Source of the DNA: Affinirhizobium straminoryzae
Lineage (GTDB): Bacteria > Pseudomonadota > Alphaproteobacteria > Rhizobiales > Rhizobiaceae
Direction of reading: 5' to 3'
DNA: 64,000 bases
Assembly (NCBI RefSeq): GCF_007004135.1
Contig: NZ_VJMG01000076.1
Location: forward strand, 1 to 64,000
The notes under the pieces: model-generated
Told to the model about the DNA's origin: nothing
The model's input: only the letters and a program-made list of their open reading frames with translations
The model's database searches: none
Shown here: positions 3,368 through 23,794 of the stretch, one piece after another
Layout: each line of letters begins with the position of its first letter
How positions within the stretch are numbered: position 1 is the stretch's first letter
Translations under genes and position numbers: made by a program

Positions 3368-4363
3368 TTACCGGGCCACGTCGATAACGACGCGGCCACG
3401 CACCTGCCCGGCGACGATCTCGTTGGCGAGTTCGGGGAGGCGGGAGAGAGGCTCGACGCGGGTCATGGCTGCGAGATGGTCGCGGTTGAGATGTTCTGCA
3501 AGCGTTGCCCAGGCGGCCTTGCGCTTGACCATTGGCGCCATCACGGAATCCACACCGAGAAGGGCCACCCCGCGCAGGATGTGCGGCAGCACGGTTCCCG
3601 GAAGATCAGCGCCGCCGGCCAGACCGCAAGCAGCAACGGCGCCCCCATAGACCGTCTGCGACAGAACGTTCGCCAGCGTGATGGAGCCGACGGAGTCAAC
3701 CGCTCCGGCCCAGCGTTCCTTCTGCAGCGGGCCGCCCTTTTCCGTCAGGCTGGCACGGTCGATGAAGGCGCTGGCGCCGAGGTCGCGCAGGTAGTCGTGC
3801 GTTTCGGGCCGCCCCGTCGAAGCCGTCACACTATAGCCCTTGGCGGCGAGAAGGCTGACCGCAACAGACCCAACGCCCCCGGCCGCACCCGTGACCAGCA
3901 CCTCGCCAGCCCCCGGCTTCATGGCGCCCCAGGCTTCCAGCACGTTGACGCACAGCGCCGCCGTATAGCCGGCCGTGCCGACCGCCATCGCCTCTTCAAA
4001 GGAAAAGCCGTCCGGGATCGCCATCAGCCATTCGGGCTTGAGACGCTGAAAACGGCTGTAGCCGCCCCATTCCGTTTCCGACAGGCCGAAGCCGTTGACC
4101 AGCACGCGGTCGCCGGCCTTCCAGAGAGGCGAACGAGACTCGACGACTGTACCCGCCAGATCGATGCCGGCCACCATCGGCGTGCGGCGGGCAATGCGCC
4201 CCTTGCCGCTGATGGCGAGGCCATCCTTGTAGTTGAGGCCCGAGCAGGCGATCTCCACGAGCACATCGTGATCCGGCAGATCGGCGAGGCCGAGGTTTCT
4301 GAATTCCGCCTTCGGTTTGCCATCCACGAGATCGATGACGAGGGCCGTAAAGGTTTCGCTCAT
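3368..4363 (-). CDS. acuI: NADPH-dependent acrylyl-CoA reductase family (AcuI/YhdH-like MDR oxidoreductase)
   Basis: Zinc-independent medium-chain dehydrogenase/reductase of the YhdH/AcuI group, which reduces acrylyl-CoA to propionyl-CoA with NADPH and detoxifies acrylate. The 331 residues match the family length. Visible marks are the GroES-like N-terminal part (SGLNYKDGLAISGKG), the nucleotide-binding VTGAAGGVGSVAV near residue 150 and VDSVGS further on. The start at 4363 is supported by AGGAGCG upstream; the in-frame ATG 33 bases earlier lacks one. It converges on the GntR gene at 2638, with 19 bases between stops, and lies 36 bases downstream of the FCD regulator gene, so it may share that transcript. 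Substrate assignment rests on family resemblance. Confidence 0.8.
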   Translation of the reverse strand: MSETFTALVIDLVDGKPKAEFRNLGLADLPDHDVLVEIACSGLNYKDGLAISGKGRIARRTPMVAGIDLAGTVVESRSPLWKAGDRVLVNGFGLSETEWGGYSRFQRLKPEWLMAIPDGFSFEEAMAVGTAGYTAALCVNVLEAWGAMKPGAGEVLVTGAAGGVGSVAVSLLAAKGYSVTASTGRPETHDYLRDLGASAFIDRASLTEKGGPLQKERWAGAVDSVGSITLANVLSQTVYGGAVAACGLAGGADLPGTVLPHILRGVALLGVDSVMAPMVKRKAAWATLAEHLNRDHLAAMTRVEPLSRLPELANEIVAGQVRGRVVIDVAR

Positions 4364-4399
4364 GGGCAGAGACGCTCCTGATGGATGAAAGAACAAGGG

Positions 4400-5158
4400 T
4401 CAGGCTTCGGACGAGCCGGCGAGCTTGCGATTTTCCCGGGCCTGCAGGGCCGCGGCATAGGACTGGCTGACATAGTCGAGCAACTGCCCGAGCGCGGTGA
4501 CCGCACGGGCGGCATCCTCGGCACGGATGCCCTCGAGGATATCCCGGTGCAGGGAGGCCACCCGGCGGCGCTCGCGCACGCGAAAGACGATCATGTTGGT
4601 GATCGGAATGAAGGCCTCGATGACGGTATACATCATCAGCTTCAGCGGCCCGTTGCCGGTGGAATCGACCAGCGCGCGATGAAAGCGAACGTCGGACGCG
4701 CAGAAATCCTCGTCACTCAGCGACTTGTCCTCCTGCACCCGGATCTCGTCTTCCATCAGCGCCAGAAAGAGCGGATCCGGCCGTTCGGCGGCAAGCCGGC
4801 AGCAGATCGTCTCGGTTTCCCGGCGGGCGGTGATGATTTCCTCGATGTCGAAGGCGCCCACGCCGACCAGCAGCGTCGCCGCGCCGGTAATGGCTTTCGA
4901 CAGGCCTTCGGGATCGGGGCGCTTGACGAAATTGCCGCCCGTCGGTCCGCGCTTGGAGTGGATCAGATTCTGCGCGGCAAGCCGCTTCAGCGCCTCGCGC
5001 ACGGTGGGGCGCGAAATGCCGAAACTGCGGGCGAGATCCTCTTCGCTGGGAAGGCGCTCATCCACCTTCAGCCGGCCGTCCATGATGGCGGAACGGATGT
5101 TTTCGGCAACCTGCTTGGCAATGCCGGATCGCACCACTTCATCATATTTGAGGATCAT
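4400..5158 (-). CDS. GntR family transcriptional regulator, FadR/FCD subfamily
   Basis: Regulator with an N-terminal winged helix (about residues 8-75; GISRPTVREALKRL) and a C-terminal all-helical FCD domain, the class that senses small organic acids such as lactate or glycolate. I chose ATG 5158 (MILKYDEVV, 252 residues) because it is preceded by GGAGAGGGG; two in-frame ATGs 21 and 30 bases upstream have no such site. The gene is divergent from the FAD-linked dehydrogenase at 5290, and an inverted repeat with the GT-N-AC core lies between them. A role as regulator of that operon, responding to its hydroxyacid substrate, is the likely reading. Confidence 0.88.
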   Translation of the reverse strand: MILKYDEVVRSGIAKQVAENIRSAIMDGRLKVDERLPSEEDLARSFGISRPTVREALKRLAAQNLIHSKRGPTGGNFVKRPDPEGLSKAITGAATLLVGVGAFDIEEIITARRETETICCRLAAERPDPLFLALMEDEIRVQEDKSLSDEDFCASDVRFHRALVDSTGNGPLKLMMYTVIEAFIPITNMIVFRVRERRRVASLHRDILEGIRAEDAARAVTALGQLLDYVSQSYAAALQARENRKLAGSSEA

Positions 5159-5231
5159 GCCCCTCTCCACTCGCGTCATCGGAATCATGGCACGGGCCGG
5201 GCCAAATTGCTACACCTTTTTAAATATAGGT

Positions 5232-5289: not shown

Positions 5290-6774
5290 ATGGTCTGCCG
5301 GTCCGGTCTCGATCCGGTCGATGGCGCATTGCGTCGTGCGACACCCTCTGCCACGGACGAACGTGTTCGCTCCGTGCTCGGCATTGTGTCGAGCCGGCTG
5401 CCGCCTGCGGCCTTTCTGGTTGGCTCCGACGTGGGGGATGGCTACCGGGGTGACGCGACGGATGAGAAGGGTGCGCTGCCGCCCGTGGTACTCAGGCCCG
5501 CCACGACAGACGAATTGTCCCTGATCCTTTCCGCCTGCAACGACCTTCGCCAGCCTCTCGTCCTGCAGGGTGGCCGGACCGGACTTGCCGGCGGTGCCCG
5601 GCCGATGGAGGGTGAGCTATCCCTGTCGCTGGAGCGGATGAAGCGGCTTTCCCCCGTGAATGTCGATGCGGCGACGATCGTTGCCGAGGCCGGCGTCACG
5701 TTGCAGGAAGTGCAGGCGGCGGCCAACGAGGCGGGCTTCTTCTTCGGCGTCGATATCGGTGCGCGCGGCTCCTGCACGATCGGCGGCAATGTCGCGACCA
5801 ATGCCGGCGGCATCCGCGTGCTGCGCTATGGAATGTTCCGGGCGCAGGTGGCCGGCGTCGAGGCGGTTCTTGCCGATGGTTCGGTTCTCTCCAGCCTCAA
5901 GGGCCTGCCCAAGGACAATTCCGGGCTCGACCTCAATCACCTCTTCATCGGGTCGGAAGGGGTGCTCGGCATAGTGAGCAAGGCCTGCCTGAAGCTCTGG
6001 CCGAAGCCGGTGACGGAAGCCAATGCGCTTTGCGTCGTTCCGAGCATCGATGCGGCACAGGATCTGCTGGTGCGTCTCCGGCAGTCGCTGGGTTCTCTCC
6101 TGTCGGCGTTCGAGATCCTGTTTCCGGAGGTCTATGCCGGTATTGCCAGAGGCGGCTTTGCCGCGCCGCCGCTGCCGCTGCCGGTGACGGGCGGTTATTA
6201 CATTCTCACGGAAATCCAGGGACAGACGGGCGACAGTGATCGCGAGCGCTTTTCCGAAGCCCTGATGGACGCGCTTGATGACGGGCTGGCAAGCGACGTG
6301 GTCGTGTCGCAGTCCTCGCGCGATTTCGAGGGGTTGTGGCGGCTGCGGGAGGCCAGCAACAGCTTCATTTTCAGCCTGTCCAATGTCGTGGGTTTCGATG
6401 TCAGCGTTCCCGCCGCCAGCATGGCGCGTTTCCTCGATCGGGCGGCGGCGTCGGTCAGGGCGATAGACCGGCACGCCGAAACCTACATCTTCGGCCATCT
6501 CGGCGACGGCAACCTGCATTACATGGTGCGCAGCCCGGAACACGATGCGCTGGCCGATGCGGTTCTGACCGCAGCAGCCGAAGCCGGCGGCTCGATTTCC
6601 GCAGAGCACGGCATCGGCCTCGACAAGAAGCCCTGGCTTTCTCTGGTGCGCAGCCCCGCCGAATTGGCGGCCATGCGCCGGCTGAAGCGCGCTTTCGACC
6701 CCCATTCCATCCTCAATCCCGGTCGCGTCTTCGACCTGGAGCCATCGCATGCTGGCGAGAAGGTGTGCCCATGA
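5290..6774 (+). CDS. FAD-linked 2-hydroxyacid dehydrogenase (GlcD / D-2-hydroxyglutarate dehydrogenase-like)
   Basis: Flavoprotein of the FAD_binding_4 plus FAD-oxidase_C architecture, 494 residues. The N-terminal FAD domain shows GGRTGLAGGARP near residue 97 and GGNVATNAGG near 165; the C-terminal cap ends with the family motif EHGIGLDKK near 438-446. Members oxidise D-2-hydroxyacids (D-lactate, glycolate, D-2-hydroxyglutarate) to 2-oxoacids. There are no C-terminal Fe-S cysteines, so it resembles the single-subunit type. It is the first gene of a rightward operon and overlaps the next gene by 4 bases (ATGA). Because the next gene consumes 2-oxoacids (arylpyruvates), an aryl-lactate substrate is plausible but unproven. 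Confidence 0.88.
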   Translation: MVCRSGLDPVDGALRRATPSATDERVRSVLGIVSSRLPPAAFLVGSDVGDGYRGDATDEKGALPPVVLRPATTDELSLILSACNDLRQPLVLQGGRTGLAGGARPMEGELSLSLERMKRLSPVNVDAATIVAEAGVTLQEVQAAANEAGFFFGVDIGARGSCTIGGNVATNAGGIRVLRYGMFRAQVAGVEAVLADGSVLSSLKGLPKDNSGLDLNHLFIGSEGVLGIVSKACLKLWPKPVTEANALCVVPSIDAAQDLLVRLRQSLGSLLSAFEILFPEVYAGIARGGFAAPPLPLPVTGGYYILTEIQGQTGDSDRERFSEALMDALDDGLASDVVVSQSSRDFEGLWRLREASNSFIFSLSNVVGFDVSVPAASMARFLDRAAASVRAIDRHAETYIFGHLGDGNLHYMVRSPEHDALADAVLTAAAEAGGSISAEHGIGLDKKPWLSLVRSPAELAAMRRLKRAFDPHSILNPGRVFDLEPSHAGEKVCP

Positions 6775-9700
6775 CCATCAACCCTCCCTCGGCGGCGATT
6801 GCCGCGCGCCGCGCGGTCAACGAGAGCATCGATCTCGAGGACCGCTATCGCCTCGAAGACGGGCGCATCCTCGTCTCCGGCACGCAGGCGCTGGTGCGCC
6901 TGCCGATGATCCAGCGACAGCGGGATCTTGCCGCCGGCCTGAACACGGCGGGCTATATTTCCGGTTATCGCGGCTCGCCGCTCGCCGGCTTCGACCGGGA
7001 AGTCATCAGGGCACGCCGCTATCTGGATGAGGCCCATGTCAGGTTCCAGCCTGGCCTCAACGAGGACATGGCCGCAACGGCAGTGTGGGGCACCCAGCAG
7101 ACGGAACTTTTCGAGGGCGCGCGTTACGACGGCGTGTTTGCCATGTGGTATGGCAAGGGGCCGGGCGTCGATCGCAGCATGGACGTGATCCGCCATGCCA
7201 ATGCGGCGGGAACCAGCCGGCACGGCGGCGTGCTGCTTCTCGCCGGCGACGATCACGGCGCCTCTTCCTCGACGCTGCCGCATCAGAGCGAACACAATCT
7301 GATCTCGGCCATGGTGCCGCTGCTGTCGCCGGCCGGCGTTGGCGAGTATATCGATTACGGCCTCATCGGCTGGGCCATAAGCCGTTATTCCGGCGCCTGG
7401 ATCGGCTTCAAGTGCCAGACGGAAATCGTCGAATGCACGGCAACCGTCGAGATCGGTCCGCATCGTCCGATGATCGTACTGCCGGAAAATGCGCTTACGC
7501 CCGGCGAACTTTCGCTTCGCTGGCCGGATGGACCGCATGCGATGGAGCTTCGTCTGGAGCGCAAGATGGATGCGGTGCGCGCCTTTGCGCGGGCCAACCG
7601 CATCGACCGCCGCTCGGGCATGACCGGCAGAGGCCGGCTCGGCATCGTGTCCACCGGCAAGAGCTGGCTCGACCTCCTGGGCGCGCTGTCGCTGCTCGGA
7701 ATTGCCGAAGGCGACCTCCAGGACCTCGGCATCGGCCTTTACAAGGTCGGCCTCGTCTGGCCGCTCGAACCGGACGGCATTTCTGCCTTCGCGGCAAGCT
7801 TCGACGAAATCCTGGTGGTCGAGGAAAAGCGGTCGATCATCGAGGAACAGGTGAAGGGACTGCTCTTCAACCTGTCCGCCGATCGTCGCCCGCGCATCGT
7901 CGGCAAGAGCGGCGAGGAGGGGCAGGCGCTTCTGCTGGCCACCGGCGAAATCTCGCCGCTCTCGATTGCCCACGCAATCCTTGCGCGCCTGGGAGATGCG
8001 GATGGGCGGCTGGCCGGCGCCGCGCACATGATCCGGGCGCTGAGCGCCGCTTCCGGTGAGGAAATCGTCGCACTTCGGCGTGATCCCTATTTCTGCTCGG
8101 GCTGTCCGCACAGCATCTCGACGCGCCTTCCCGAAGGAAGCCGGGCGAGCACCGGCATCGGCTGCCACATGATGATCATCGGCAACGAGGACCGCAACAC
8201 CTCCACCTTCACCCAGATGGGCGGCGAGGGCGGGGCCTGGATCGGCCTTTCCCCCTTCACCGACGAGAAGCACATCTTCGTCAACATGGGGGACGGCACC
8301 TATTTCCATTCGGGTCTGCTGGCGATCCGCGCCGCGATCGCCGCCAAGGTGAATGCCACCTACAAGATCCTGTTCAACGATGCCGTCGCCATGACCGGCG
8401 GTCAGCGGCATGATGGCGAACTGAGCGTTCCAGCCGTCGTAGAGCAGGTGTTGGCGGAAGGGGCGCAGCGCGTCGTGGTCGTTGCGGAATTTCCAGAGCA
8501 CTGGCACGGCAGTCTGCCGCGCGCCGTTTCGATCCATCACCGCGACGAACTGGATGCCGTGCAGCGATCGCTGAGGGAGATCGAGGGGGTCACGGTTCTC
8601 ATCTTCGATCAGGTCTGCGCGGCGGAAAAGCGGCGCCGGCGCAAGCGCGGCGCTTTCCCCACCTCGGACAAGCGGGCCTTCATCAACGAACTGGTCTGCG
8701 AGGGCTGCGGCGATTGCTCGGCCGTCTCCAACTGCATTTCGATCGAACCGAAGGAAACCGAGTTCGGCCGCAAGCGAACGATCAACCAGTCAAGCTGCAA
8801 CACCGATCTTTCCTGCATCAAGGGCTTCTGCCCGAGCTTCGTGACCGTCGAGGGCGGTACGCTGCGCAAGCCGAAGGGACGGGGCGTCGCCGCCGGTGCG
8901 GAGGACCTGCCGATGCCGCAGATCGCGGCAAACCTGTCCCAGCCCTACAATCTCCTGCTGGCCGGCATCGGCGGAACCGGCGTCATCACCGTCTCGGCCA
9001 TCCTGTCGATGGCGGCTCATCTCGACGGACTGGCGGTGGTGACGCTCGACCAGACCGGACTTGCGCAGAAAAACGGCGCGGTCGTCTCCCATCTCCGGCT
9101 CGCGGCCGAGCCCTCGACCCTGAACCGCGTGCGCATCGGCGCCGGCGAAAGCGATGTGGTGCTGGGCTTCGACGTGGTGGTTGCCGCAGGGCGCACCGTA
9201 CTGCCGACCTTTGCCAAAGGTCGCACGCGTGGCGTGGTGGACGATCACTTCGCACCGACTGCCGCCTTCGTGCAGAACACCGCGATCGACCTCAGGCAGG
9301 AAGCGACCTTGCGGGCGCTGAAGAAGGCGGCCGGCGAGGAGGCGCTGTCGCTCGTCGAGGCAACCCGCGCCGGCACCGCACTGCTCGGCGATGCGATTGC
9401 CGCCAACATGCTGCTGCTCGGCACCGCCTGGCAGCGCGGCCTGATCCCGATCAGCCTCGACGCCATCGAGCGGGCCATCACCCTCAACGGCACCGGCATT
9501 GCCATGAACCGCGCGGCCTTCGACTGGGGCCGGCGTCTCGCGCTTGATCCGCTGGCCGTGGCAAAGGCTGCGGGGTTCGTGAAGGAAGAGGCGAAGCCGG
9601 AAAGTCTGGACGAGATCGTCCGGCGTCGGTCGGATTTCCTCACCGCCTATCAGGATGCCGCCTATGCGGCGCGGTACCGGGGGCTGGTGGAACGCGCGCG

Positions 9701-10286
9701 GCAGGCCGAGGCGAGGGCGGGAGGCTCAACACGCTTTGCAGAGGCCGTAGCCCGCAACGCCTTCAAGCTGATGGCTTACAAGGACGAGTACGAGGTGGCG
9801 CGGCTGCATCGCGATCCCGCCTTTGCCAAGGCCATCGCTGCCCAGTTCGAGGGCGATTACAGGCTGCGTCACCATCTGGCGCCGCCGCTCTTTTCCGGCC
9901 GGATCGATGGCCGCACCGGCCGGCCGGCAAAGATTGCGCTCGGGGGCTGGATCAATCCGGTGTTCGGCCTGCTTGCCCGCATGAAAAGGCTGCGCGGAAC
10001 ACCTTTCGACATTTTTGGATACACCGCGGAGCGTCGCATGGAGCGGCAGATGATCGCCGACTACGCCGCGCTGGTGGACGAACTCTGTCGGGACCTCTCG
10101 GCCGAACGACTGGCTGCCGCCGTGGAGCTTGCCGGTCTTGCCGACATGGTCCGCGGTTTCGGCCCCGTGAAGCTGGAGGCCGCCACGCGCTACGAGGCGC
10201 GCAAGACCGAACTGATGTCGATCTGGCGCGATAGCCCCGCAAATCAGACGGTGACGCGGCCGGCGGAAGGGAAAGCCCATGCCTGA
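6771..10286 (+). CDS. Fused indolepyruvate ferredoxin oxidoreductase (IorAB-type)
   Basis: Single 1171-residue chain that fuses the alpha and beta/gamma parts of arylpyruvate ferredoxin oxidoreductase, which decarboxylates indolepyruvate or phenylpyruvate to the aryl-acetyl-CoA using thiamine diphosphate and an Fe-S electron acceptor. Visible parts in order: pyrimidine-binding POR domain with YRGSPLAGFD near residue 65; CSGCPHS near 442; TPP-binding GDGTYF near 506; a cysteine cluster CEGCGDCSAVSNC near 643-655 for a 4Fe-4S centre; the gamma domain GIGGTGVITVS near 731. Length matches the alphaproteobacterial fused form. It starts inside the stop of the dehydrogenase gene and overlaps the nucleoside hydrolase gene by 8 bases. 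No break is seen. The exact 2-oxoacid is not known. Confidence 0.92.
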   Translation: MTINPPSAAIAARRAVNESIDLEDRYRLEDGRILVSGTQALVRLPMIQRQRDLAAGLNTAGYISGYRGSPLAGFDREVIRARRYLDEAHVRFQPGLNEDMAATAVWGTQQTELFEGARYDGVFAMWYGKGPGVDRSMDVIRHANAAGTSRHGGVLLLAGDDHGASSSTLPHQSEHNLISAMVPLLSPAGVGEYIDYGLIGWAISRYSGAWIGFKCQTEIVECTATVEIGPHRPMIVLPENALTPGELSLRWPDGPHAMELRLERKMDAVRAFARANRIDRRSGMTGRGRLGIVSTGKSWLDLLGALSLLGIAEGDLQDLGIGLYKVGLVWPLEPDGISAFAASFDEILVVEEKRSIIEEQVKGLLFNLSADRRPRIVGKSGEEGQALLLATGEISPLSIAHAILARLGDADGRLAGAAHMIRALSAASGEEIVALRRDPYFCSGCPHSISTRLPEGSRASTGIGCHMMIIGNEDRNTSTFTQMGGEGGAWIGLSPFTDEKHIFVNMGDGTYFHSGLLAIRAAIAAKVNATYKILFNDAVAMTGGQRHDGELSVPAVVEQVLAEGAQRVVVVAEFPEHWHGSLPRAVSIHHRDELDAVQRSLREIEGVTVLIFDQVCAAEKRRRRKRGAFPTSDKRAFINELVCEGCGDCSAVSNCISIEPKETEFGRKRTINQSSCNTDLSCIKGFCPSFVTVEGGTLRKPKGRGVAAGAEDLPMPQIAANLSQPYNLLLAGIGGTGVITVSAILSMAAHLDGLAVVTLDQTGLAQKNGAVVSHLRLAAEPSTLNRVRIGAGESDVVLGFDVVVAAGRTVLPTFAKGRTRGVVDDHFAPTAAFVQNTAIDLRQEATLRALKKAAGEEALSLVEATRAGTALLGDAIAANMLLLGTAWQRGLIPISLDAIERAITLNGTGIAMNRAAFDWGRRLALDPLAVAKAAGFVKEEAKPESLDEIVRRRSDFLTAYQDAAYAARYRGLVERARQAEARAGGSTRFAEAVARNAFKLMAYKDEYEVARLHRDPAFAKAIAAQFEGDYRLRHHLAPPLFSGRIDGRTGRPAKIALGGWINPVFGLLARMKRLRGTPFDIFGYTAERRMERQMIADYAALVDELCRDLSAERLAAAVELAGLADMVRGFGPVKLEAATRYEARKTELMSIWRDSPANQTVTRPAEGKAHA

Positions 10287-11247
10287 GAAGATCATCATCG
10301 ACACCGATCCGGGCCAGGACGATGCCTTTGCCATTCTGCTGGCGCTGGCAAGCCCTGAGCTTGAGGTGCTCGGCATCACCACGGTGGCCGGCAATGTGCC
10401 GCTGCCGCTGACATCGCGAAATGCCCGGCAGATTGTCGAACTCGCGGGGCATGCACATGTGCCAGTCTTTGCCGGCTGCGCCAGGCCGATGGCGGGGCCC
10501 CTCGTGACGGCCGAGCATGTGCATGGCGCAACCGGTCTTGACGGGGCTTCCCTTCCGGAACCGGTGATTCCGCTCTCGTCCACCCATGCGGTCGATTTCA
10601 TCATCGAAACGCTGATGCGGGAGCCGGAAGGAACTGTCACCCTCTGCCCGCTCGGCCCCTTGACCAATATCGGCACGGCCCTCGTTCGCCAGCCCGAAAT
10701 TGCCGGCAGGATCCGCCGCATCGTGCTGATGGGCGGCGGATGTTTCGAAGGCGGCAACATCACACCCGCAGCAGAGTTCAATATCTTCGTCGATCCGCAG
10801 GCTGCCGTGATGGTCTTCGCCTCCGGCATCCCGATCGTCATGATGCCGCTCGATGTAACCCACAAGGTCAGGACGACCACCGCCCGCGTCGACCGGATTC
10901 GCCGCATCGGCGGGCATCTCGGGGCAGTGGCGGCCGGCTGGCTCGACTATTTCGAGCGGTTCGATGAGGAGAAATACGGCACCGATGGCGCACCGCTGCA
11001 TGACCCCAACGTAATCGCCTATCTGTTGAGGCCCGACCTCTATGGCGGGCGGATATGTAATGTCGAAATCGAGGCGGAGTCGGAACTGACGCGCGGGATG
11101 ACCGTGGTTGACTGGTGGGGCGTCAGCCAGCGTCCGGCCAATGCGCTGTTCATCCGCGAGGTCGATGACGAGGCCTTCTTCGACCTGCTGACGGAGCGTT
11201 TGCAGCGGCTTGCGCTCCGTACGCCGTCACTGGCGGCGATTGCCTGA
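10279..11247 (+). CDS. Nucleoside hydrolase (inosine-uridine preferring family)
   Basis: Ca2+-dependent N-ribohydrolase that splits nucleosides into base and ribose, 322 residues. The N-terminal motif DTDPGQDDA (residues about 8-16) supplies the metal-binding aspartates, and the later motifs (LGPLTNIGTAL, VLMGGG, AEFNIFVDPQAA) fit the family. It is the third gene of the operon and overlaps the ferredoxin oxidoreductase gene by 8 bases. Its pairing with two aromatic or hydroxyacid enzymes is unexpected; the substrate could be a ribosylated aromatic or an unrelated nucleoside. The family call is firm, the biological role is open. Confidence 0.93.
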   Translation: MPEKIIIDTDPGQDDAFAILLALASPELEVLGITTVAGNVPLPLTSRNARQIVELAGHAHVPVFAGCARPMAGPLVTAEHVHGATGLDGASLPEPVIPLSSTHAVDFIIETLMREPEGTVTLCPLGPLTNIGTALVRQPEIAGRIRRIVLMGGGCFEGGNITPAAEFNIFVDPQAAVMVFASGIPIVMMPLDVTHKVRTTTARVDRIRRIGGHLGAVAAGWLDYFERFDEEKYGTDGAPLHDPNVIAYLLRPDLYGGRICNVEIEAESELTRGMTVVDWWGVSQRPANALFIREVDDEAFFDLLTERLQRLALRTPSLAAIA

Positions 11248-11311: not shown

Positions 11312-12133
11312 TCAGTCGAGGCCCTTGAAAGGCGCGTCGCGCACCTCGAGATATTCCTTCAGCGTCATCCTGCCGAGGTTGGCCATCCATTCGCGGCCCC
11401 TGCGGCTGACATGCAGCGCGGCGATCGCCTGAACATTGTAGTCCATCGAGGTCATCAGGCCGGCTGCGATCTGCTGGTTGTTGATCGACGCCTTAGCATA
11501 CTTGATCGCCGGCACCGGCATGCGGGCCAGCTTGCGGGCCAGCTTTTCCGTCGCGTCCTTCAGTTCCGCCGCCGGAACGACCTTGTTGACCAGCCGCATG
11601 GCAAGTGCCTCCTGGGCGTCCACCGTGTCGCCCGTATACATCAGCCAGCGGACGTCGCGGGTGGCGAGCAGCCAGGGCATGAAGAGCGACGGCGGCCCGG
11701 AATTGTGGCGCACCTCCGGCTCACCGAACTTGGCGGTATCGGCGGCAATCGCCAGATCACAGGCCATCATCAGTTCCAGTGCGCCGGCAAGGGCATAGCC
11801 GTTGATGGAGGCAATCACCGGGATCGGCGCCTTCCAGATGTTAAGAAGCGCCTGGGTGTTTTCACCCATGTCGGCATGCCAGTCTTCGATATCGACGTCG
11901 TAATCGGCTCCCTGCAGGTCGTAACCTGCGGAAAAGGCGCGGCCGGCGCCGGTGATCACGAGCGCGTTCACATCGGGATCGGCAACCGCCAGCGCCACGG
12001 CGGCATCGATCTCGCGGATGGCCGTCTTGTTCATCGCATTCAGCTTCTCCGGCCGGTTCAGCGTGATCGTGGCGAATTTGTCCGTGGCGTCCTTCTCGTA
12101 AAGGATCGTTTCAAAGACGGGCTGGTCAGTCAT
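11312..12133 (-). CDS. Enoyl-CoA hydratase/isomerase family protein
   Basis: Crotonase-fold protein, 273 residues. The oxyanion-hole segment AFSAGYDLQGADYD (about 70-85) and the acid/base region ALAGALELMMACDLAIAAD are visible, with both glutamates of true hydratases apparently kept (ALELMM and FGEPEVRHNSG). It therefore probably hydrates an enoyl-CoA rather than being an inactive relative. Start at 12133 follows AGAGGA; an in-frame ATG 36 bases earlier has no site. It is divergent from the oxygenase at 12339 and convergent with the nucleoside hydrolase. The specific acyl-CoA is unknown. Confidence 0.88.
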   Translation of the reverse strand: MTDQPVFETILYEKDATDKFATITLNRPEKLNAMNKTAIREIDAAVALAVADPDVNALVITGAGRAFSAGYDLQGADYDVDIEDWHADMGENTQALLNIWKAPIPVIASINGYALAGALELMMACDLAIAADTAKFGEPEVRHNSGPPSLFMPWLLATRDVRWLMYTGDTVDAQEALAMRLVNKVVPAAELKDATEKLARKLARMPVPAIKYAKASINNQQIAAGLMTSMDYNVQAIAALHVSRRGREWMANLGRMTLKEYLEVRDAPFKGLD

Positions 12134-12338
12134 GGGAATGGTCCTCTGGTGGCTTTCGCGGCTGATCATCTTCGCGTCCGGTCTGTCGCGGTTGGCGCAG
12201 AGGCCGCGCGCATCGCCACCCCTTCAGGGCGTGCTCCGTCCGGAAAATTTCAGCAGGACCATATGGACAACAAGTGTTTATATTGTCAACATAAGTTTGC
12301 AGATTGTCATGACAGCGTCAGAACAAGGAATACCCTCC

Positions 12339-13301
12339 ATGCCGCATGATGCCGCTCCTGCCGCCCCTTCCATTCCTGTCATCGACGTGGCGCCCTTCAT
12401 CGCCGGTGGGCCGGCAGCGGGGGATGTCGTTCGCCAGCTGGAGGCCGCCGCACGCGATACCGGCTTTTTCCTCGTGACCGGCCACGGCGTTTCCCCAGAG
12501 GTGACCGACCACCTCTACACGCTGGCACGTGCCTTTTTCGACGAGCCGCAGGACTGGAAGGTGGGGCAGGGCAGGGAGGCGACACTCGAAGGCGGCGTCA
12601 GCTTTTCGCCCCTCGCCGACGAGGCGCTCGCCGCAACGCTCGGCCTCAAGACACCCGGCGACTACAAGGAGAGCCTGAATTTCGGGCCGCGGCTGAAGGG
12701 CGGCCGGTGGCCGGCAAAGCCTGACGGGCTGGAACAGGCCTTCGTCGATTACTTCGCCGAGATGGAGCGGCTTGCCCGGCATCTGCGCCGCGCCTTCTGC
12801 GCTGCAATCGGCCTGAGGGAGGATCACTTCGAACCCTGCTTCGACCGTCATCTCTCGGCGCTTCGGGTCATCAACTATCCCGAACAGGACGAGGCACCGC
12901 TTCCGGGGCAGCTGCGGGCCGGCGTGCATACCGATTACGGCTTCATGACCATTCTGCGCTCCGAAGCCTCGCCGGGCGGGCTGCAGGTCAGGACGCGCAA
13001 GGGCGAGTGGCTGGATGCGCCGAACATCGAGGGCGCCTATGTGGTCAATATCGGTGACGCCTTCATGCGCTGGACCAATGACGAATGGGTCTCGACGCCG
13101 CATCGCGTCGCCAATCCGCCCGGAGATCGCAAGGGCAGCGCGCGGCGCCAGTCCATTCCGTTCTTTCTCAATCCAAGCGCCGAAACCGTCATCGCCTGCC
13201 TGGAGCCGTTCATGCGCGATGGCAAGGCGGCCAAATACGAACCCATCACCTATGGCGACTATATCGCGCTGAAGACCAGCCAGGCCTTCTCGAAGGCCTG
13301 A
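12339..13301 (+). CDS. 2-oxoglutarate/Fe(II)-dependent oxygenase (isopenicillin N synthase family)
   Basis: Non-haem iron dioxygenase of 320 residues that would hydroxylate or desaturate a small molecule using 2-oxoglutarate and O2. It has the N-terminal DIOX_N part (PVIDVAPFIAG; TGFFLVTGHGV) and the jelly-roll core with iron ligands His197, Asp199 (HTDYGF) and His255 (TPHRV), and the 2-oxoglutarate-binding Arg270 in an RxS motif (RRQS). I chose ATG 12339 because AAGGA lies 10 bases before it; an earlier in-frame ATG at 12309 lacks a site. It is followed within 55 bases by an ABC importer binding protein on the same strand, so the importer probably supplies its substrate or cosubstrate. Confidence 0.9.
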   Translation: MPHDAAPAAPSIPVIDVAPFIAGGPAAGDVVRQLEAAARDTGFFLVTGHGVSPEVTDHLYTLARAFFDEPQDWKVGQGREATLEGGVSFSPLADEALAATLGLKTPGDYKESLNFGPRLKGGRWPAKPDGLEQAFVDYFAEMERLARHLRRAFCAAIGLREDHFEPCFDRHLSALRVINYPEQDEAPLPGQLRAGVHTDYGFMTILRSEASPGGLQVRTRKGEWLDAPNIEGAYVVNIGDAFMRWTNDEWVSTPHRVANPPGDRKGSARRQSIPFFLNPSAETVIACLEPFMRDGKAAKYEPITYGDYIALKTSQAFSKA

Positions 13302-13355
13302 CCGATGCCGGCGCGGCCGGGTACACGACTGCACACTCAAAAAAGGGGAACGACA

Positions 13356-14393
13356 ATGACAGCAATGACAAGACGACAGATGCTGGCCGCCATGGCGGCA
13401 TCGTCTGCGGCCGCAACCTTCGGGCTTCCGGCCCGTGCCGCGGGCAAGAGCCTCGTGGTGCCGACACTCGGCGGCGCCTGGGAACAGTTCTGGCGCACGG
13501 AACTCGCCCCCGCCTTCACCGCAAAGAGCGGCGCTGCTGTGACGCTCGATACCGGCAATGGCCGCGTGTGGAGCGCCAACCTGCGCGCCGCCGGCGTTGC
13601 CAAGCCGCCCTATTCCTTCCTGATGACGAACGAGGCTTTTGCCAACAGCCTGCGCAAGGAAGGCTTCTTCGAAAAGCTCGATCTCAGCAAGCTGCCGAAC
13701 TATGCCGATCTCTATCCGCTGGCGAAGAAGACCGATGGCTGGGGTGCAATTGCCATGGTCTCGCCGATCGGCCTTGCCTATCGCACCGACATGGTGAAGA
13801 CGCCGCCGAAGGGCTGGAAGGATCTGTGGACCAACCCCGAATTCAAGGGCCGCATCGGGCTTTACAACTTCGCTAATACCGCCGGCAAGATGGAGCTGAT
13901 GCTGTTCTCCAAGTTGTTCGGCAAGGACCAGTACGACGTGGATGCGGGCTTCAAGGCGCTGGAAAAGCTCGGCCCCATCATCCAGGCTGACTTCAACCTC
14001 TCGACCGGCATCGCCTCCGGTGAATTCGTCGTTGCGCCGTTCGACTTCGGCGAAGTGGCCCGCCTGCGCAAGCAGGGCCTGCCGATCGATGTGATCATTC
14101 CGGAGGAAGGCATGCTGATGTTCGACCAGACGCTGAACATCCTGGCCAATGCCCCGGAAAAGGAACTGGCCTACGAATATGCCAACTTCATGCTGTCGCC
14201 GGAAGCACAGGCACTGCTGATGAAGCAGTTCTATGTCTCGCCGACCAATTCCAAGGTCGTCGTGCCCGCCGATCTCAAGGCGGACGTCCCGATCTCCGGC
14301 GCGCAGATGGACAACATCCTCACCTGGGACTGGGACTTCATGAACAGCAAGCAGGGCGAACTGGCCGAAGTCTGGGCCAAGACCGTCAAGTAA
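13356..14393 (+). CDS. ABC transporter substrate-binding protein (spermidine/putrescine class)
   Basis: Periplasmic binding protein of the PotD-like/SBP_bac_6-8 group, 345 residues, with a twin-arginine-like leader (MTAMTRRQMLAAMAAS, cleavage near ARA-AG). Body motifs such as VPTLGGAWEQFW and YSFLMTNEAF fit polyamine/iron-type binding proteins. ATG 13356 is preceded by AAAGGGGA. It is the first transporter gene after the oxygenase and precedes the ATPase by 107 bases that contain a hairpin. Substrate is unknown; the class binds polyamines, ferric iron, thiamine or opine-like ligands. Confidence 0.9.
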   Translation: MTAMTRRQMLAAMAASSAAATFGLPARAAGKSLVVPTLGGAWEQFWRTELAPAFTAKSGAAVTLDTGNGRVWSANLRAAGVAKPPYSFLMTNEAFANSLRKEGFFEKLDLSKLPNYADLYPLAKKTDGWGAIAMVSPIGLAYRTDMVKTPPKGWKDLWTNPEFKGRIGLYNFANTAGKMELMLFSKLFGKDQYDVDAGFKALEKLGPIIQADFNLSTGIASGEFVVAPFDFGEVARLRKQGLPIDVIIPEEGMLMFDQTLNILANAPEKELAYEYANFMLSPEAQALLMKQFYVSPTNSKVVVPADLKADVPISGAQMDNILTWDWDFMNSKQGELAEVWAKTVK

Positions 14394-14417
14394 GCGGCGC
14401 CCCCTCGCACGGACCTC

Positions 14418-14442
14418 GATCCGGTCGGCCTCCGGCCGGATC
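14418..14442 (+). terminator. Hairpin between binding-protein and ATPase genes
   Basis: GATCCGGTCGG-CCT-CCGGCCGGATC folds as an 11-base-pair stem with one G-T pair. No T-run follows, so it more likely stabilises the upstream binding-protein mRNA or attenuates readthrough than ends transcription outright. Confidence 0.5.
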
Positions 14443-14500
14443 ATACCGCCACGAGATACCTGGCGTGCAGGCGACAGGCTAGAGGAAGAAAGTTGACGTC

Positions 14501-15559
14501 ATGACAGAGGTTAGCATCGAGCAGCTGACCAAGGATTACGGCACGCATCGCGCGGTGGCCGGCATTTCCGTCCGCATCCGCGATGGGGAGTTCATCTCGC
14601 TGCTCGGTCCGTCCGGCTGCGGCAAGACAACGACGCTGAAGATGATTGCCGGTTTCGAGGACGTGTCGAGCGGGGCCATCCGCTTCGACGGTCGCGATGT
14701 GGTGAATGTCCCGGCAGAGCGGCGCGACATCGGCATGGTGTTCCAGAACTACGCGCTCTTCCCGCACATGACAGTGGCCGGAAATCTCGCCTTCGGGCTG
14801 GAAATGCGCAAGGTGCCGAAGGTGCAGATGCAGGAGCGCATCGCCCGCGTGCTGGACATGGTCCAGCTGACCAGCCATGCGGATCGCTATCCGCGGCAAC
14901 TCTCCGGCGGACAGCAGCAACGCGTGGCGCTGGCCCGCGCGCTCGTCATCGAGCCGAAGATCCTGCTGCTTGACGAGCCGCTCGCCAATCTCGATGCCAA
15001 GCTGCGCGAGGAAATGCGGGTCTTCATCCGCGACATCCAGCGCCGCGTCGGCATCACCACCGTCTATGTCACGCACGACCAGGCAGAAGCCATGACCATG
15101 TCGGACCGCGTGGTGGTGATGTTCGGCGGCCGTATCGCCCAGTGCGGCAGCCCCTCCGACATCTACGAGAAACCCTCCAGTATCGAGGTCGCGCAGTTCG
15201 TCGGACAGGTGAACCTGATGACGATGGTGGTCGAGGAGCGGCTGGCCGACGATCGCGTGCGGCTGAGCGGTCCGCTTGGCGAGGCGGTGGTGCCGAACCC
15301 GCATGCGCTGCGCAAGGGAGAGCGGGTCACAGTGGCCCTTCGTCCGGAAGCCATCGACATCTCCGTCACCGGTCCCGGCCAGTCTGCCACGGTTCTTTCC
15401 AGCCATTATTCCGGCAGCCTGATGGATTACCGATTGCAGCTTGCCGATGGCAGCCGGATCGACGTGCAGACCTTCCCGCGCCAGCGCTTTGCCGAAGGCG
15501 ACAGCGTCCATGTTCATGCGCCGGCTGATCGCTACTGGCTGCTGGAGGATGCGGAATGA
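14501..15559 (+). CDS. ABC transporter ATP-binding protein (PotA-type)
   Basis: ATPase of the polyamine-class importer, 352 residues. Walker A GPSGCGKTT at about residues 36-44, Q-loop FQNYALFPH, signature LSGGQQQR, Walker B LLLDEPLANLD and switch His in VTHDQAEAM are all intact, and a C-terminal TOBE domain (about 275-350) follows. The stop overlaps the first permease start by 4 bases (ATGA), which couples translation. Cytoplasmic face of the inner membrane. Confidence 0.93.
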   Translation: MTEVSIEQLTKDYGTHRAVAGISVRIRDGEFISLLGPSGCGKTTTLKMIAGFEDVSSGAIRFDGRDVVNVPAERRDIGMVFQNYALFPHMTVAGNLAFGLEMRKVPKVQMQERIARVLDMVQLTSHADRYPRQLSGGQQQRVALARALVIEPKILLLDEPLANLDAKLREEMRVFIRDIQRRVGITTVYVTHDQAEAMTMSDRVVVMFGGRIAQCGSPSDIYEKPSSIEVAQFVGQVNLMTMVVEERLADDRVRLSGPLGEAVVPNPHALRKGERVTVALRPEAIDISVTGPGQSATVLSSHYSGSLMDYRLQLADGSRIDVQTFPRQRFAEGDSVHVHAPADRYWLLEDAE

Positions 15560-16416
15560 CGACCGGCTCCTCCCATCGCCATGCACCGCTGCTGCTGATT
15601 GCGCCGGCCGCAATCCTGCTGTTCGTCTTCCTGGTCCTGCCCTACCTCTCCATCGTGGTGATGAGCTTTCGCACACCGGGGCAGGGGAGCCCCTATGGCG
15701 AAGGCTATACGCTGGCGAATTACGCGCGTTTCTTCGGCGACAGCTTCTATCTGGGGCAGATCGCCAATACGCTGATGATCGGCTTTATCTGCACGCTGGC
15801 CTGCCTGCTTCTGGGGTTTCCCGTCGCGTGGCAACTGGCCCGCGGCACCTCCCGCCTCAGGGGGCTCGCCTATGGCGTCGTGTTGTCGCCGCTTCTGGTC
15901 GGCATCGTCATCCGCAGCTATGGCTGGACGATCCTGCTCGGCAATAACGGCGTGATCAACCGCAGCCTGATGGGGCTCGGCCTCATCGATCGGCCGCTGG
16001 GCCTCATGTACAATACGCTCGGCATCGTCATTGCGCTGACCCACGTCTTCCTGCCCTTCATGATCCTGCCGATCATGAGTGCCATCCAGGGCATCGATCC
16101 TTCGCTGGAATCGGCGGCCCGCTCGCTTGGCGCCTCGCGTGCCACGATCATCCGCCGCATCATCCTGCCTCTGTCGATGCCGGGCATCCAGGCCGGCTGC
16201 ATCCTGACCTTCGTCCTGTCGCTTTCCGCCTATGTGACGCCGTCGCTGATCGGGGGCTCCAAGGTCAAGACCATGGCCGTCTCGGTCGTCGATGCGCTGG
16301 TCGATACCTTCCAGTGGCCGTTCGGCTCGGCGCTGGCGCTCGGGCTTGCCGTCACCGGCGGCGTGATCGTCGTCCTCTTCTCCCGCTTCACCCGGATGAC
16401 ATGGAAGGCCAATTGA
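15556..16416 (+). CDS. ABC transporter permease (PotB-type)
   Basis: Inner-membrane subunit of 286 residues with about six hydrophobic helices. The cytoplasmic EAA loop (ESAARSLGASRATIIRRIILP, near residues 180-200) contacts the ATPase. Starts in the ATGA overlap with the ATPase gene and is followed one base later by the second permease gene. Function follows from family and position. Confidence 0.92.
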   Translation: MTTGSSHRHAPLLLIAPAAILLFVFLVLPYLSIVVMSFRTPGQGSPYGEGYTLANYARFFGDSFYLGQIANTLMIGFICTLACLLLGFPVAWQLARGTSRLRGLAYGVVLSPLLVGIVIRSYGWTILLGNNGVINRSLMGLGLIDRPLGLMYNTLGIVIALTHVFLPFMILPIMSAIQGIDPSLESAARSLGASRATIIRRIILPLSMPGIQAGCILTFVLSLSAYVTPSLIGGSKVKTMAVSVVDALVDTFQWPFGSALALGLAVTGGVIVVLFSRFTRMTWKAN

Positions 16417-16417
16417 C

Positions 16418-17200
16418 ATGTCCCGCATCGTCTTCACCGTCTATTGCCTGATCATCTACGCCTTCCTGCTGGCCCCGATCCTCGTGGTCGTCGGCGCCTC
16501 GTTCAATGCCGGCGCCTTCCTGACCTTCCCGCCACAAGGCCTGTCCTTCCGCTGGTATGGGGTCTTCTTCAACAACGAGGTGTTCCTGCGCGCCATCAAG
16601 ACCTCGCTGTGGGTCGCTGCCGTCTCCACGGTGATCTCCGGCATCATCGGCACCATGGCGGCCATCTACTTCGTGCAGTTTGCCGGCCGCCTGAAGGATG
16701 GGGTTCGGATCGCGATGATGGCGCCGCTGCTGCTGCCGGAGGTGCTAACCGCGATCGCGCTCCTGTTTTTCGTCTATGCCATCGGCATCGGCACGCAGAC
16801 CATGTTCGCGATGATCGTCGGCCACGTGCTGATCACATTGCCCTTCGTCTTCATCAATGTCTCGACCTCGCTGGAAAGCTACGATCCCGCCTGGAGCATG
16901 GCGGCCCGCAGCCTGGGGGCCGGGGCCTTCACCCGCTTCCGCCGCATCATGCTGCCCCTCATCAAGCCGGGCGTGATCGGCGGCTGCCTGTTCGCCTTCA
17001 TCATCTCCTTCGACATCTTCACCATCTCGTTCATGCTGAAGAGTGTCGGGACGGCGACGCTGCCGATCCAGCTCTACGATTATCTGAGGACCAATTTCAC
17101 GCCCGAAGCCGCCGCCGTCTCCACGCTGTCGGTGGTCCTGACACTCGTCGTGGTCGTGGTGACGGAGAAGTTCCTGGGTCTTAGGATTCACCGCTTCTGA
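16418..17200 (+). CDS. ABC transporter permease (PotC-type)
   Basis: Second membrane subunit of the polyamine-class importer, 260 residues, with about six transmembrane helices and an EAA loop (SMAARSLGAGAFTRFRRIMLP, near residues 150-170). One base separates it from the previous permease gene. It is the last gene of the oxygenase/importer operon; a strong hairpin lies just after the stop. Confidence 0.92.
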   Translation: MSRIVFTVYCLIIYAFLLAPILVVVGASFNAGAFLTFPPQGLSFRWYGVFFNNEVFLRAIKTSLWVAAVSTVISGIIGTMAAIYFVQFAGRLKDGVRIAMMAPLLLPEVLTAIALLFFVYAIGIGTQTMFAMIVGHVLITLPFVFINVSTSLESYDPAWSMAARSLGAGAFTRFRRIMLPLIKPGVIGGCLFAFIISFDIFTISFMLKSVGTATLPIQLYDYLRTNFTPEAAAVSTLSVVLTLVVVVVTEKFLGLRIHRF

Positions 17201-17309: not shown

Positions 17310-17951
17310 CTAGCGGGCTGCCCAGTTCGCGCCGCGGCGAAAGATCTCGCGCATCTGCGGCACCTCGAATTCCTGCGCCACATGGCCGAGCGAGGAGTAG
17401 AAGACGCGGCCCTTGCCATAGCGGCGCTTCCAGACGACGGGCATGACGACACCCTCGATCCACCAGGCGTGGTCGCCGGTAAAGGTTGTCGTCGCCAGCA
17501 CCTCGTTGGAGGGGTCGACATGCATGTAATACTGTTCGGAGTGATAGGGGAAATCAGCGATTCCCTCCATCAGCGGATCGTCAGGACGCGTGATGTTGAC
17601 GGTGTAGTCGATGATGTTGCCGGGATGGGCCACCCATTGCCCGCCGACGATGAACTGGTATTCCACGCATTCGCGGAAGGCGTCGCCAGCGCCGCCGTGG
17701 TAGCCGGCAAAACCGACGCCCCCCTCGATGGCGGCGGCGAGGTTCTTGGCCTCCTCCTTCTCGATCTTCGACATGGTCATGATCGGCACGATCAGCGAGA
17801 GATCGTGAATCGAAGGATCGGCAAAGGCCTCGGTGCTGCGTTCCACATAGACCTTGAAGCCATCCGCCTGCAGCATGTCGCGGATGATCTCGGCGCATTG
17901 TTCCGGTTCGTGGCCACTCCAGCCACCCCAGACGATCAGGGCTTCGCGCAT
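17310..17951 (-). CDS. ThuA-like domain protein
   Basis: Protein of 213 residues with the class I glutamine-amidotransferase-like fold of ThuA (trehalose utilisation). Visible landmarks are the N-terminal WGGWSGHEP, a central [16 protein letters not shown] near residue 80-95 and a C-terminal [13 protein letters not shown] near 185. The start at 17951 (MREALIV) follows a GGAGAAG-like site; a longer in-frame start adds an implausible Pro/Ser/Cys-rich segment. It lies 19 bases downstream of the Gfo/Idh/MocA gene on the same strand. ThuA relatives with such dehydrogenases take part in disaccharide oxidation; the precise reaction is unsettled. Confidence 0.88.
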
Positions 17952-17970
17952 ATTCTTCTCCTCCCGTGTG

Positions 17971-19071
17971 TCAGCGGGCCAGCCGGCCGTCGCGCAAGGA
18001 TTGCGACAACGGCGCGGGCCGCTCGGTTTTGGTGGTGATGTCGATGGTGGTGCCGCGCTCGGCGGCGCGCAGGAAGGCTTCCATGACCTCCAGAACATGC
18101 AGCGCCAGATCGCCATTGGCGCGGTGTGGACGCCCGCTTCGCAATGCATGCGCCATGTCAGCCACGCCGATCGAGCGATAATTGCCGTCGGCGTAGGGGC
18201 GCGTGGTTTCCTGCGGCTCGAAGCTGCCGCCCTTCTTCAGATATTCGATCTGCCCGCCGAAATGATTGGGATCGGGCACGATCAGCGTGCCATCGGTGCC
18301 GTAGATCTCCAGCGGCACGTGCTTGTGGCCGGCCACATCGAAGCTCATGCCGATCTGTACCACGGCACCGCACTGGAAGGCCATCACGCCCGCCACATGG
18401 GTCGCCACATCGACCGGAATGATCTCGCCGTGACGGGGCTGGCTGGTGATCACGCGCTCCTTGCGCGGCGCGATCGCAAAGCCCGCGACCTTGTCCACCG
18501 GCCCGAGCAGATTGACGAGATCGGTGATGTAATAGGGGCCCATGTCCAGCATCGGCCCGCCGCCCACTTCGTAATAGAAGGCGGGGTTCGGATGCCAGCG
18601 TTCATGGCCCGGGCACATGAAGGTGGCCGTGCCGCCGACCGGCTGGCCGAGCACGCCGGCGTCGATCATCTCGCGCGCCGTCTGGTGCGATCCGCCGAGA
18701 AACGTATCGGGCGCCGCCCCGATCCGCAGACCCTTTTCGCGCGCGGCGAGCGCCAGGGCGTGTCCCTCGGCAAAGCTGATACCGAGCGGCTTTTCGGAAT
18801 AGGTGTGCTTGCCGGCCTCCAGCGCCCGCATCGCAACGCTCACATGTGCCTTCGGCACCGTAAGGTTGACGATGATCTCGATCCCCCGGTCGGCGAGAAG
18901 CGCCTCCACCGTCTTCGCCTCGAGCCCGAATTCGGCGGCACGCTGGCGCGCCAGTTCTTCGTTGAGGTCCGCCACGCCCTTGATGTCGAGAATGGGAAAG
19001 GAGGCCATTGCCTTCAGATAGGCCGAGGAAATGTTCCCGCAGCCGATGATACCGATACCAACCTTGTCCAT
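17971..19071 (-). CDS. Gfo/Idh/MocA family NAD(P)-dependent oxidoreductase
   Basis: Sugar or cyclitol dehydrogenase, 366 residues. The N-terminal Rossmann fold has GIIGCGNIS (about residues 6-14) and the family EKPLGIS segment near 95-101, in which Lys is catalytic; the C-terminal alpha/beta dimerisation domain follows. ATG 19071 has GGGAGGA directly upstream. It forms a pair with the ThuA-like gene and lies next to a ROK regulator and a sugar ABC importer, which suggests oxidation of the imported sugar. The identity of that sugar is not visible. Confidence 0.9.
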
Positions 19072-19109
19072 GGATCCTCCCAGAGTCCGAGAAACTGTCT
19101 TATGGGTCC

Positions 19110-19200
19110 AGAGCATTTCCGGCGAAAACCGGCTCACTGGAAATGCTCTATCTCTTTGTTTTCACGCAGTCCGGACGCAAAACCGCTGACGCACTTTTGG
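19110..19200. repeat. Palindromic intergenic repeat of rhizobial type
   Basis: The perfect arms AGAGCATTTCC (19110-19120) and GGAAATGCTCT (19139-19149) flank GGCGAAAACCGGCTCACT, followed by TTTTCACGCAGTCCGGACG and further mosaic sequence. Such elements (arms containing AGAGCATTTCC, with CCGGACGCAAAACCG nearby) are dispersed between genes in Rhizobiales; this is from memory. It is the only copy I see here and fills most of the gap 19072-19212. Confidence 0.7.
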
Positions 19201-19212
19201 CTCGGACGTGTT

Positions 19213-20424: not shown

Positions 20425-20460
20425 GAATCGCTATGCGCTCGCATCATTATGTTCGGCTTC

Positions 20461-20542: not shown

Positions 20543-20609
20543 GGCCGGGCAGCTTGGTCCGATTTTATACGCGTTAAGGAAAAAATGCGCACCTTGGGAG
20601 GAGAACAGG

Positions 20610-21914: not shown

Positions 21915-21924
21915 CGCCTCCGCT

Positions 21925-23781: not shown

Positions 23782-23794
23782 TCCGGAGAGTGAA

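Follow-up and report, generated by a model that had tools for sequence, protein, structure and literature searches.

An overlapping gene triplet of Affinirhizobium straminoryzae is the core of a conserved island that probably degrades RNA building blocks and a 2-hydroxy acid

Three overlapping genes of Affinirhizobium straminoryzae, encoding a 2-hydroxyacid dehydrogenase, a fused ferredoxin oxidoreductase and a nucleoside hydrolase, are located in a 64,000-nucleotide stretch of DNA (contig NZ_VJMG01000076.1, positions 1 to 64,000), referred to here as the window. Comparison with other genomes revealed that this triplet forms the centre of a larger island, which comprises as many as 14 genes. 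We conclude that the island probably degrades RNA building blocks together with a 2-hydroxy acid, feeding one central metabolite. The genes of the triplet are:

5290..6774, + strand: GlcD-type FAD D-2-hydroxyacid dehydrogenase (GlcD), 494 aa, ATG start, PF01565 and PF02913; first gene of the triplet
6771..10286, + strand: fused indolepyruvate ferredoxin oxidoreductase (IOR) family protein, 1171 aa, ATG start, with TPP, POR gamma and DUF6537 domains
10279..11247, + strand: nucleoside hydrolase (NH), 322 aa, ATG start, PF01156; closest model RihA (pyrimidine)

A sequence-only reading of this DNA had described the three genes as overlapping by 4 and 8 bases, and the coordinates confirm it: GlcD and IOR share positions 6771-6774 (4 bases), IOR and NH share 10279-10286 (8 bases), all three genes are on the + strand, and no internal stops were found in any of them by an open reading frame (ORF) check. 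The IOR scored 1614.6 bits with the indolepyruvate ferredoxin oxidoreductase family model NF009589 (cut-off 816). The NH scored 349.5 bits with PF01156 (gathering score 34.2) and 327.3 bits with the RihA equivalog NF007761, below its cut-off of 433; RihA was still the best of four NH models. GlcD stayed below the cut-off of the glycolate oxidase equivalog TIGR00387 (262.4 versus 567.9 bits). The source genome (5.5 Mb, 137 contigs) contains four PF01156 genes.

Conservation was studied in two samples. In 151 genomes of the same family, picked without regard to gene order, IOR matches of at least 59% identity were present in nine, the A. straminoryzae genome included; the IOR relatives of the eight others were 59-74% identical, and each adjoined a GlcD match. 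The GlcD match was at most 80 bases from the IOR match in all nine genomes, a match to the acrylyl-CoA reductase family protein AcuI was within 1.1 kb of GlcD in all nine, and an NH match followed IOR within 65 bases in five; the remaining four showed no NH of this family in the 20 kb examined. The second sample comprised 42 loci chosen solely through exact peptide patterns of the enoyl-CoA hydratase family protein (ECH) encoded next to the triplet in the window, so that near relatives are favoured. Genes within flanks of up to 10 kb were labelled using our own gene caller and blastp identity thresholds, and all counts are lower bounds; the caller misplaced some starts, and some genes were split or overlooked (e.g. 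in L145, L157 and L160), and record L146 duplicates L108.

In the 42 loci, a solute-binding protein (SBP) was labelled in 42, an ABC transporter ATPase and each of two permeases in 41, ECH in 41, and a 2-oxoglutarate (2OG)-Fe(II) oxygenase (OX) in 40. Further counts were 37 each for IOR and GlcD, 34 for a PsuK-like kinase, 32 for PsuG, 30 for AcuI, 29 each for a GntR regulator and an acyl-CoA ligase, and 21 for NH. GlcD and IOR were neighbours in 35 loci, IOR and NH in 19, and the whole triplet was present in 17, with gene spacings of -8 to +52 bases as placed by the gene caller. The triplet is thus not unique to the strain, and the association of its genes exceeds chance and is kept across genera, in agreement with the earlier view that they act together. 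In its fullest form, annotated for example on plasmid pRL12 of R. johnstonii 3841 (RL_RS33770-33835), the island consists of a PotD/PotA-like transporter and OX, a divergent PsuK-PsuG-ECH-ligase group, NH-IOR-GlcD, and GntR-AcuI; PsuK, PsuG, ECH and ligase were co-directional in 27 of the 42 loci. The minimal form (R. bangladeshense) contains AcuI, GntR, GlcD, IOR, ECH, OX and the transporter only, while in a third form (Aminobacter) an AMP-binding ligase is present and the stretch shown contains neither OX nor NH nor Psu genes. Rhizobium, Neorhizobium, Mesorhizobium and Ciceribacter are among the island's named carriers.

NH was found in 21 of the 34 loci with PsuK and in none of the eight without it (Fisher, 0.003), all 21 NH-bearing loci having the kinase, and the ligase in 29 loci of the first group and none of the second (Fisher, 1e-5); both values overstate independence, since the genomes are related. 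The sequence-only reading had seen no obvious place for the hydrolase, and the company of its relatives, a PsuK-like kinase and mostly also PsuG, supplies a likely one, most probably in the breakdown of pseudouridine and uridine. The island kinase is of the PfkB family with an N-terminal helix-turn-helix, and PsuG is of the Indigoidine_A/PsuG family; the kinase is assumed to be specific for pseudouridine because it is paired with PsuG. Two PsuK loci (L142, 1635-2555, - strand; L143, 11090-12007, + strand) encode a different and more distant hydrolase, PF01156-like by eye, that is perhaps a substitute.

In the A. straminoryzae genome, PsuK-PsuG-NH were located at C88 (locus L107, 7237-10403), beside a pncB-like gene. 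This site holds the only PsuG match of the genome, and no IOR or GlcD was found within the 20 kb read around it; PsuK-PsuG-NH therefore also occur together without IOR. The C88 NH is nested among island NHs in a phylogenetic tree (support 98/93), where the window NH groups with NHs of Ciceribacter and Rhizobium islands; the non-island rows of this tree exclude the IOR-linked short loci L005, L006, L010 and L013 and the short fragment L031. The C88 PsuG is 89-92% identical to its island counterparts in Xaviernesmea, Neorhizobium and R. populisoli. PsuG was a single match in 127 of 129 PsuG-bearing genomes of the family, and in five genomes (G140, G127, G028, G074 and G104) the sole copy is at most 15 kb from GlcD-IOR. 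The window is exceptional in gene placement, not in gene content. The C88 arrangement suggests that the island may be split over two sites in this genome.

The unit in the window is larger than the triplet: GntR and AcuI lie upstream (3368-5188) and ECH, OX and the transporter downstream (11312-17200), and these genes mostly recur alongside it:

3368..4363, - strand: MDR protein of the acrylyl-CoA reductase family (TIGR02823), AcuI/YhdH type; its ORF is open to 4396
4400..5188, - strand: FadR-type regulator (GntR/FCD), transcribed divergently from the triplet
11312..12169, - strand: ECH_1 protein of the enoyl-CoA hydratase family, transcribed convergently to the triplet, probable start about 12133
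12309..13301, + strand: DIOX-type 2OG-Fe(II) oxygenase; the ORF is open from 12132, and 12309 is the inferred start
13305..14393, + strand: extracellular solute-binding protein, PotD-related
14501..15559, + strand: ABC transporter ATPase with TOBE_2, PotA-like
15556..16416, + strand: ABC transporter permease 1
16418..17200, + strand: ABC transporter permease 2

Beyond them, positions 17310-24868 encode ThuA, GFO/IDH/MocA and ROK proteins; an ABC transporter of the sugar type is adjacent, and the whole is probably a sugar locus distinct from the island.

In the window ECH, both glutamates that we take to be catalytic in the crotonase fold are retained and align with the pair in 5zai; a 3-hydroxypropionyl-CoA dehydratase ranked third among the PDB matches of this ECH. 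A role as p-hydroxycinnamoyl-CoA hydratase/lyase (HCHL) was considered and set aside: HCHL chains were among the weaker matches, but HCHL has only one of the two catalytic glutamates, and ECH keeps both. A class-wide search of 385 genomes revealed seven further genomes with ECH relatives 52-56% identical, near which inspection of the sequences identified UPRTase in five, URC1- and URC4-like genes in three and an AMP-binding ligase in four; Pfam confirmed URC1, URC4 and UPRTase at L174 and UPRTase at L172. The URC4 model (PF07958), which does match the L174 protein, had no match in the 151 family genomes, a search in which no positive control matched either. The window AcuI scored 405.3 bits with the acrylyl-CoA reductase family TIGR02823 (cut-off 297.25) and is the only such match in its genome at E <= 1e-60. 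Island AcuIs of the nine genomes scored 406-444 bits with NF051456, four of them above its equivalog cut-off of 440.

The best matches of the ligase present in related islands were 4-hydroxybutyrate- and 3-hydroxypropionate-CoA ligases and the dimethylsulfoniopropionate (DMSP) lyase 7cm9, which we take to be DddX; all were under the equivalog cut-offs. DddX is described as releasing acryloyl-CoA (PMC8163506), and AcuI as the acrylyl-CoA reductase of 3-hydroxypropionate assimilation (PMC4029986, PMC12632250). The context of ECH, AcuI and ligase suggests the sequence 3-hydroxypropionyl-CoA to acryloyl-CoA to propionyl-CoA. An island-type ligase is absent from the window and was not found in its genome at E <= 1e-60, and IOR would therefore be the only CoA-ester maker of the island here. 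The same genome contains a D-hydantoinase/dihydropyrimidinase match (598 bits) beside an M20-type hydrolase, the latter recognised by eye.

The AlphaFold model of GlcD (pLDDT 77.7) was most similar among PDB folds to 3pm9 (Z 33.9, root-mean-square deviation 2.9, 442 residues aligned) and human D2HGDH (Z 33.6, 3.3, 445 residues). In the alignment with D2HGDH, whose Arg386, Thr390 and Lys401 presumably bind the side-chain carboxylate of D-2-hydroxyglutarate, the window GlcD keeps the arginine and has asparagine for T390 and glycine for K401. All 16 aligned island GlcDs share this glycine (G368); L099, and perhaps L100, has serine. Because the side-chain carboxylate residues are changed, D-2-hydroxyglutarate is an unlikely substrate. 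The triplet IOR is 44-54% identical to other full-length IORs of the family. Relatives of GlcD (53-54%) also occur in another conserved cluster on plasmids of Paracoccus, Pseudosulfitobacter and Cereibacter (L113, L114 and L115, respectively), with an FGGY kinase, an acetolactate synthase-like enzyme, a molybdopterin oxidoreductase and a rhodanese; an AcuI-like MDR was seen in L113, an acyl-CoA synthetase in L113 and L114 and GntR in L113 and L115, and IOR is annotated in none of the stretches shown.

The reading that we favour, and to which we give an even chance, has two branches, one for a 2-hydroxy acid through GlcD and IOR and one for nucleosides through NH, PsuK and PsuG, which would meet at ECH and AcuI and end in propionyl-CoA. 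The reactions, all of which we infer from protein families and gene context, would proceed as follows. GlcD would convert a D-2-hydroxy acid to a 2-oxo acid, and the IOR-type enzyme would oxidatively decarboxylate the latter to a CoA ester, with no ATP spent. NH, beside PsuK and PsuG, would release uracil from pseudouridine and from nucleosides of the uridine type, and reductive pyrimidine catabolism encoded elsewhere would turn uracil into 3-hydroxypropionate. ECH and AcuI would convert the CoA ester, in the simplest case 3-hydroxypropionyl-CoA and then acryloyl-CoA, to propionyl-CoA. In most relatives an acyl-CoA ligase would feed 3-hydroxypropionate into this same end; the variant in the window would operate without a ligase, with PsuK and PsuG elsewhere in the genome. 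Our guess, prompted by the convergence of the pathways, is that the 2-hydroxy acid is 2,4-dihydroxybutyrate, which would give 3-hydroxypropionyl-CoA directly.

Uptake of polyamines by the transporter was rejected as a candidate function: in an alignment of SBP to 1poy, all three acidic residues that we take to bind polyamines in PotD (Asp168, Glu171 and Asp257) are replaced. In eight loci, the island is flanked on its transporter side by a gene for a pyridoxal phosphate protein resembling, by eye, D-threonine/3-hydroxyaspartate aldolases (e.g. L138, 1409-2560). The best solved relatives of OX, searched with positions 12387-13301 as query, were ethylene-forming enzyme (E 1e-38) and then thymine dioxygenase (E 3e-35), and its Fe and 2OG residues are invariant in 19 island sequences; its predicted structure (pLDDT 52.9) was too poor and was left unused. 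Pfam identified DIOX_N and 2OG-FeII_Oxy in OX and no PhyH at E <= 0.001, unlike the PHYHD1/FJS nucleoside demethylases, for which PhyH is presumably the expected domain. A palindrome, GATGTTGACAAAAACATC, overlapping TTGACA was observed in 31 of 34 OX-PsuK intergenic regions (at most two mismatches; 0.5 expected from shuffles; loci L119-L160). Given its N-terminal helix-turn-helix, PsuK may regulate itself. Upstream of OX in the window (12169-12387), where PsuK is missing, only the AACAT half of the palindrome is recognisable, with four mismatches.

Several observations weigh against the two-branch reading. The minimal island shows no nucleoside genes, and the GlcD/IOR branch can therefore stand alone, the coupling being perhaps no more than a shared end. 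No gene for opening the uracil ring was found in the island, nothing indicates that IOR, whose family is named for indolepyruvate, accepts a non-aromatic acid, and the role of OX is unexplained. The triplet itself is not always whole: Neorhizobium petrolearium (L112), L137 and L154 have IOR and NH with no GlcD between GntR and IOR, so that GlcD is sometimes missing, and L147 and L151 carry NH and GlcD with no labelled IOR. The window island, having NH without PsuK, breaks the rule that NH accompanies the kinase. A kinase of the island type (L092) scored 113.1 bits versus 540 for the pseudouridine kinase equivalog NF007355, its specificity being assumed. In the NH tree, the island NHs are not one clade, three label changes being required, and the non-island NHs of L015 and L017 fall on the island side. 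The window AcuI did not reach the cut-off of NF051456 (418.3 versus 440 bits), and two genomes, G127 and G104, hold higher-scoring AcuIs outside the island (542, 474 and 484 bits); the island AcuI may therefore be specialised. No uracil gene was seen at two of the seven distant ECH loci, L169 and L171, each of which is truncated by a contig end. Finally, the OX-PsuK operator was found in none of 27 GntR-GlcD regions and none of seven other regions upstream of OX (at most two mismatches); a single regulon for the whole island was rejected on its absence upstream of GlcD.

The locus could be shared without the pathway being shared, if a salvage cassette of NH, PsuK and PsuG had landed by an unrelated 2-hydroxyacid island, the gene overlap then meaning co-expression only. 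The minimal island, where neither NH, PsuK, PsuG nor the ligase was seen in the stretches examined, the C88 site with its nucleoside genes and no IOR or GlcD, and the operator missing upstream of GlcD would all fit. We nevertheless regard such a landing as unlikely: NH adjoins IOR in 19 of the 42 loci, in several genera, the 27 co-directional PsuK-PsuG-ECH-ligase groups look like single operons of nucleoside and CoA genes, and uracil genes accompany several of the distant ECH relatives. The sequence-only reading had proposed a route from aryl-lactate through arylpyruvate to aryl-acetyl-CoA, in which NH might release an aromatic base or agent from a ribosylated precursor. Its general logic, from a 2-hydroxy acid through a 2-oxo acid to an acyl-CoA, is chemically sensible and is retained in the two-branch reading. 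The IOR does belong to the indolepyruvate ferredoxin oxidoreductase family, and the GlcD fold is near that of D-2-hydroxyacid dehydrogenases whose solved structures contain a variety of 2-hydroxy and 2-oxo acids. The aryl or indole assignment is nonetheless weak, and we consider the route quite improbable: the neighbouring AcuI and a hydratase-type ECH with two glutamates indicate a short acyl chain, the triplet IOR has an identity of only about 44-54% to the other IORs of the family, and no phenylacetate, indole or other aromatic catabolic genes were recognised, by eye, among the recurrent island neighbours.

A different use of the same enzymes would be alpha-oxidation of modified uridines, in which OX would hydroxylate 5-carboxymethyluracil, GlcD would produce uracil-5-glyoxylate, IOR would form uracil-5-carbonyl-CoA, ECH and AcuI would attack the activated C5=C6 bond, and NH with PsuK and PsuG would remove ribose. 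OX, GlcD and IOR would form a chemically complete series and mostly co-occur (40, 37 and 37 of the 42 loci), thymine dioxygenase is second among the PDB relatives of OX, and the glycine of GlcD in place of the D2HGDH lysine could make room for a ring; a 2OG oxygenase is also known in the catabolism of free modified nucleosides, according to PMC12709175. If true, the route would be a catabolism of modified uridines from plant and fungal tRNA, and ring cleavage through a CoA-activated double bond would be a heteroaromatic counterpart of benzoyl-CoA metabolism. We find it very unlikely, as it comes from chemical reasoning only, islands of the Aminobacter type show no oxygenase, and the ECH relatives in uracil clusters fit 3-hydroxypropionate instead. 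Very little probability is given to plain oxidation of D-lactate, glycolate or D-2-hydroxyglutarate into an ordinary 2-oxoacid oxidoreductase: GlcD is in that superfamily, with D2HGDH among its closest solved structures, but its score is well under the glycolate oxidase equivalog cut-off, and the asparagine and glycine at T390 and K401 speak against D-2-hydroxyglutarate, though not against D-lactate.

The enzymes are thus of known kinds, and their arrangement was not found in print by a search outside which lay supplements and most subscription papers. Within these limits, no literature linking pseudouridine, indolepyruvate ferredoxin oxidoreductase and Rhizobium was found, nor any linking acrylyl-CoA reductase with indolepyruvate ferredoxin oxidoreductase, and no mention of six guessed pRL12 locus tags. 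Terms for pseudouridine, nucleoside hydrolase, rhizosphere and R. leguminosarum overlapped only partially, in what is by its title a taxonomy review, and papers on 2,4-dihydroxybutyrate, hydroxy-oxobutyrate and 3-hydroxypropionyl-CoA are, by title and abstract, engineering, regulation or review work. Decaying RNA is the source of free nucleosides, among them modified ones, and PMC12709175 describes bacterial breakdown of 2'-O-methylated nucleosides as little studied. A conserved island that connects the salvage of pseudouridine and uridine with an acyl-CoA end, and that R. johnstonii 3841 shares with other rhizobia, would provide directly testable genes. If the two-branch reading is true, a group of fused IORs gains a role outside aromatic amino acids.

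Compared with known systems, the island resembles reductive 3-hydroxypropionate assimilation, the AcuI route of Cereibacter/Rhodobacter sphaeroides, in its AcuI-type reductase, its hydratase/dehydratase family protein and, in most relatives, its CoA ligase; it differs in adding GlcD-IOR as a putative ATP-free source of CoA ester, OX and the nucleoside genes, and in lacking the ligase in the window. The PfkB kinase and the Indigoidine_A/PsuG protein in the islands of relatives and at C88 recall PsuK-PsuG pseudouridine catabolism of E. coli, but the island kinase has an N-terminal helix-turn-helix and falls under the pseudouridine kinase cut-off, and the island genes share their locus with acyl-CoA genes and often with NH. 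A likeness to the URC uracil-catabolism clusters is seen in the three of seven distant ECH relatives that adjoin URC1- and URC4-like genes, whereas no URC genes were seen in the island. Fused IORs act in aromatic amino acid breakdown, and the triplet IOR is of the same protein family; it is set apart from the other full-length fused IORs by its 44-54% identity to them and by its place beside GlcD in all nine IOR-bearing genomes of the 151-genome sample.

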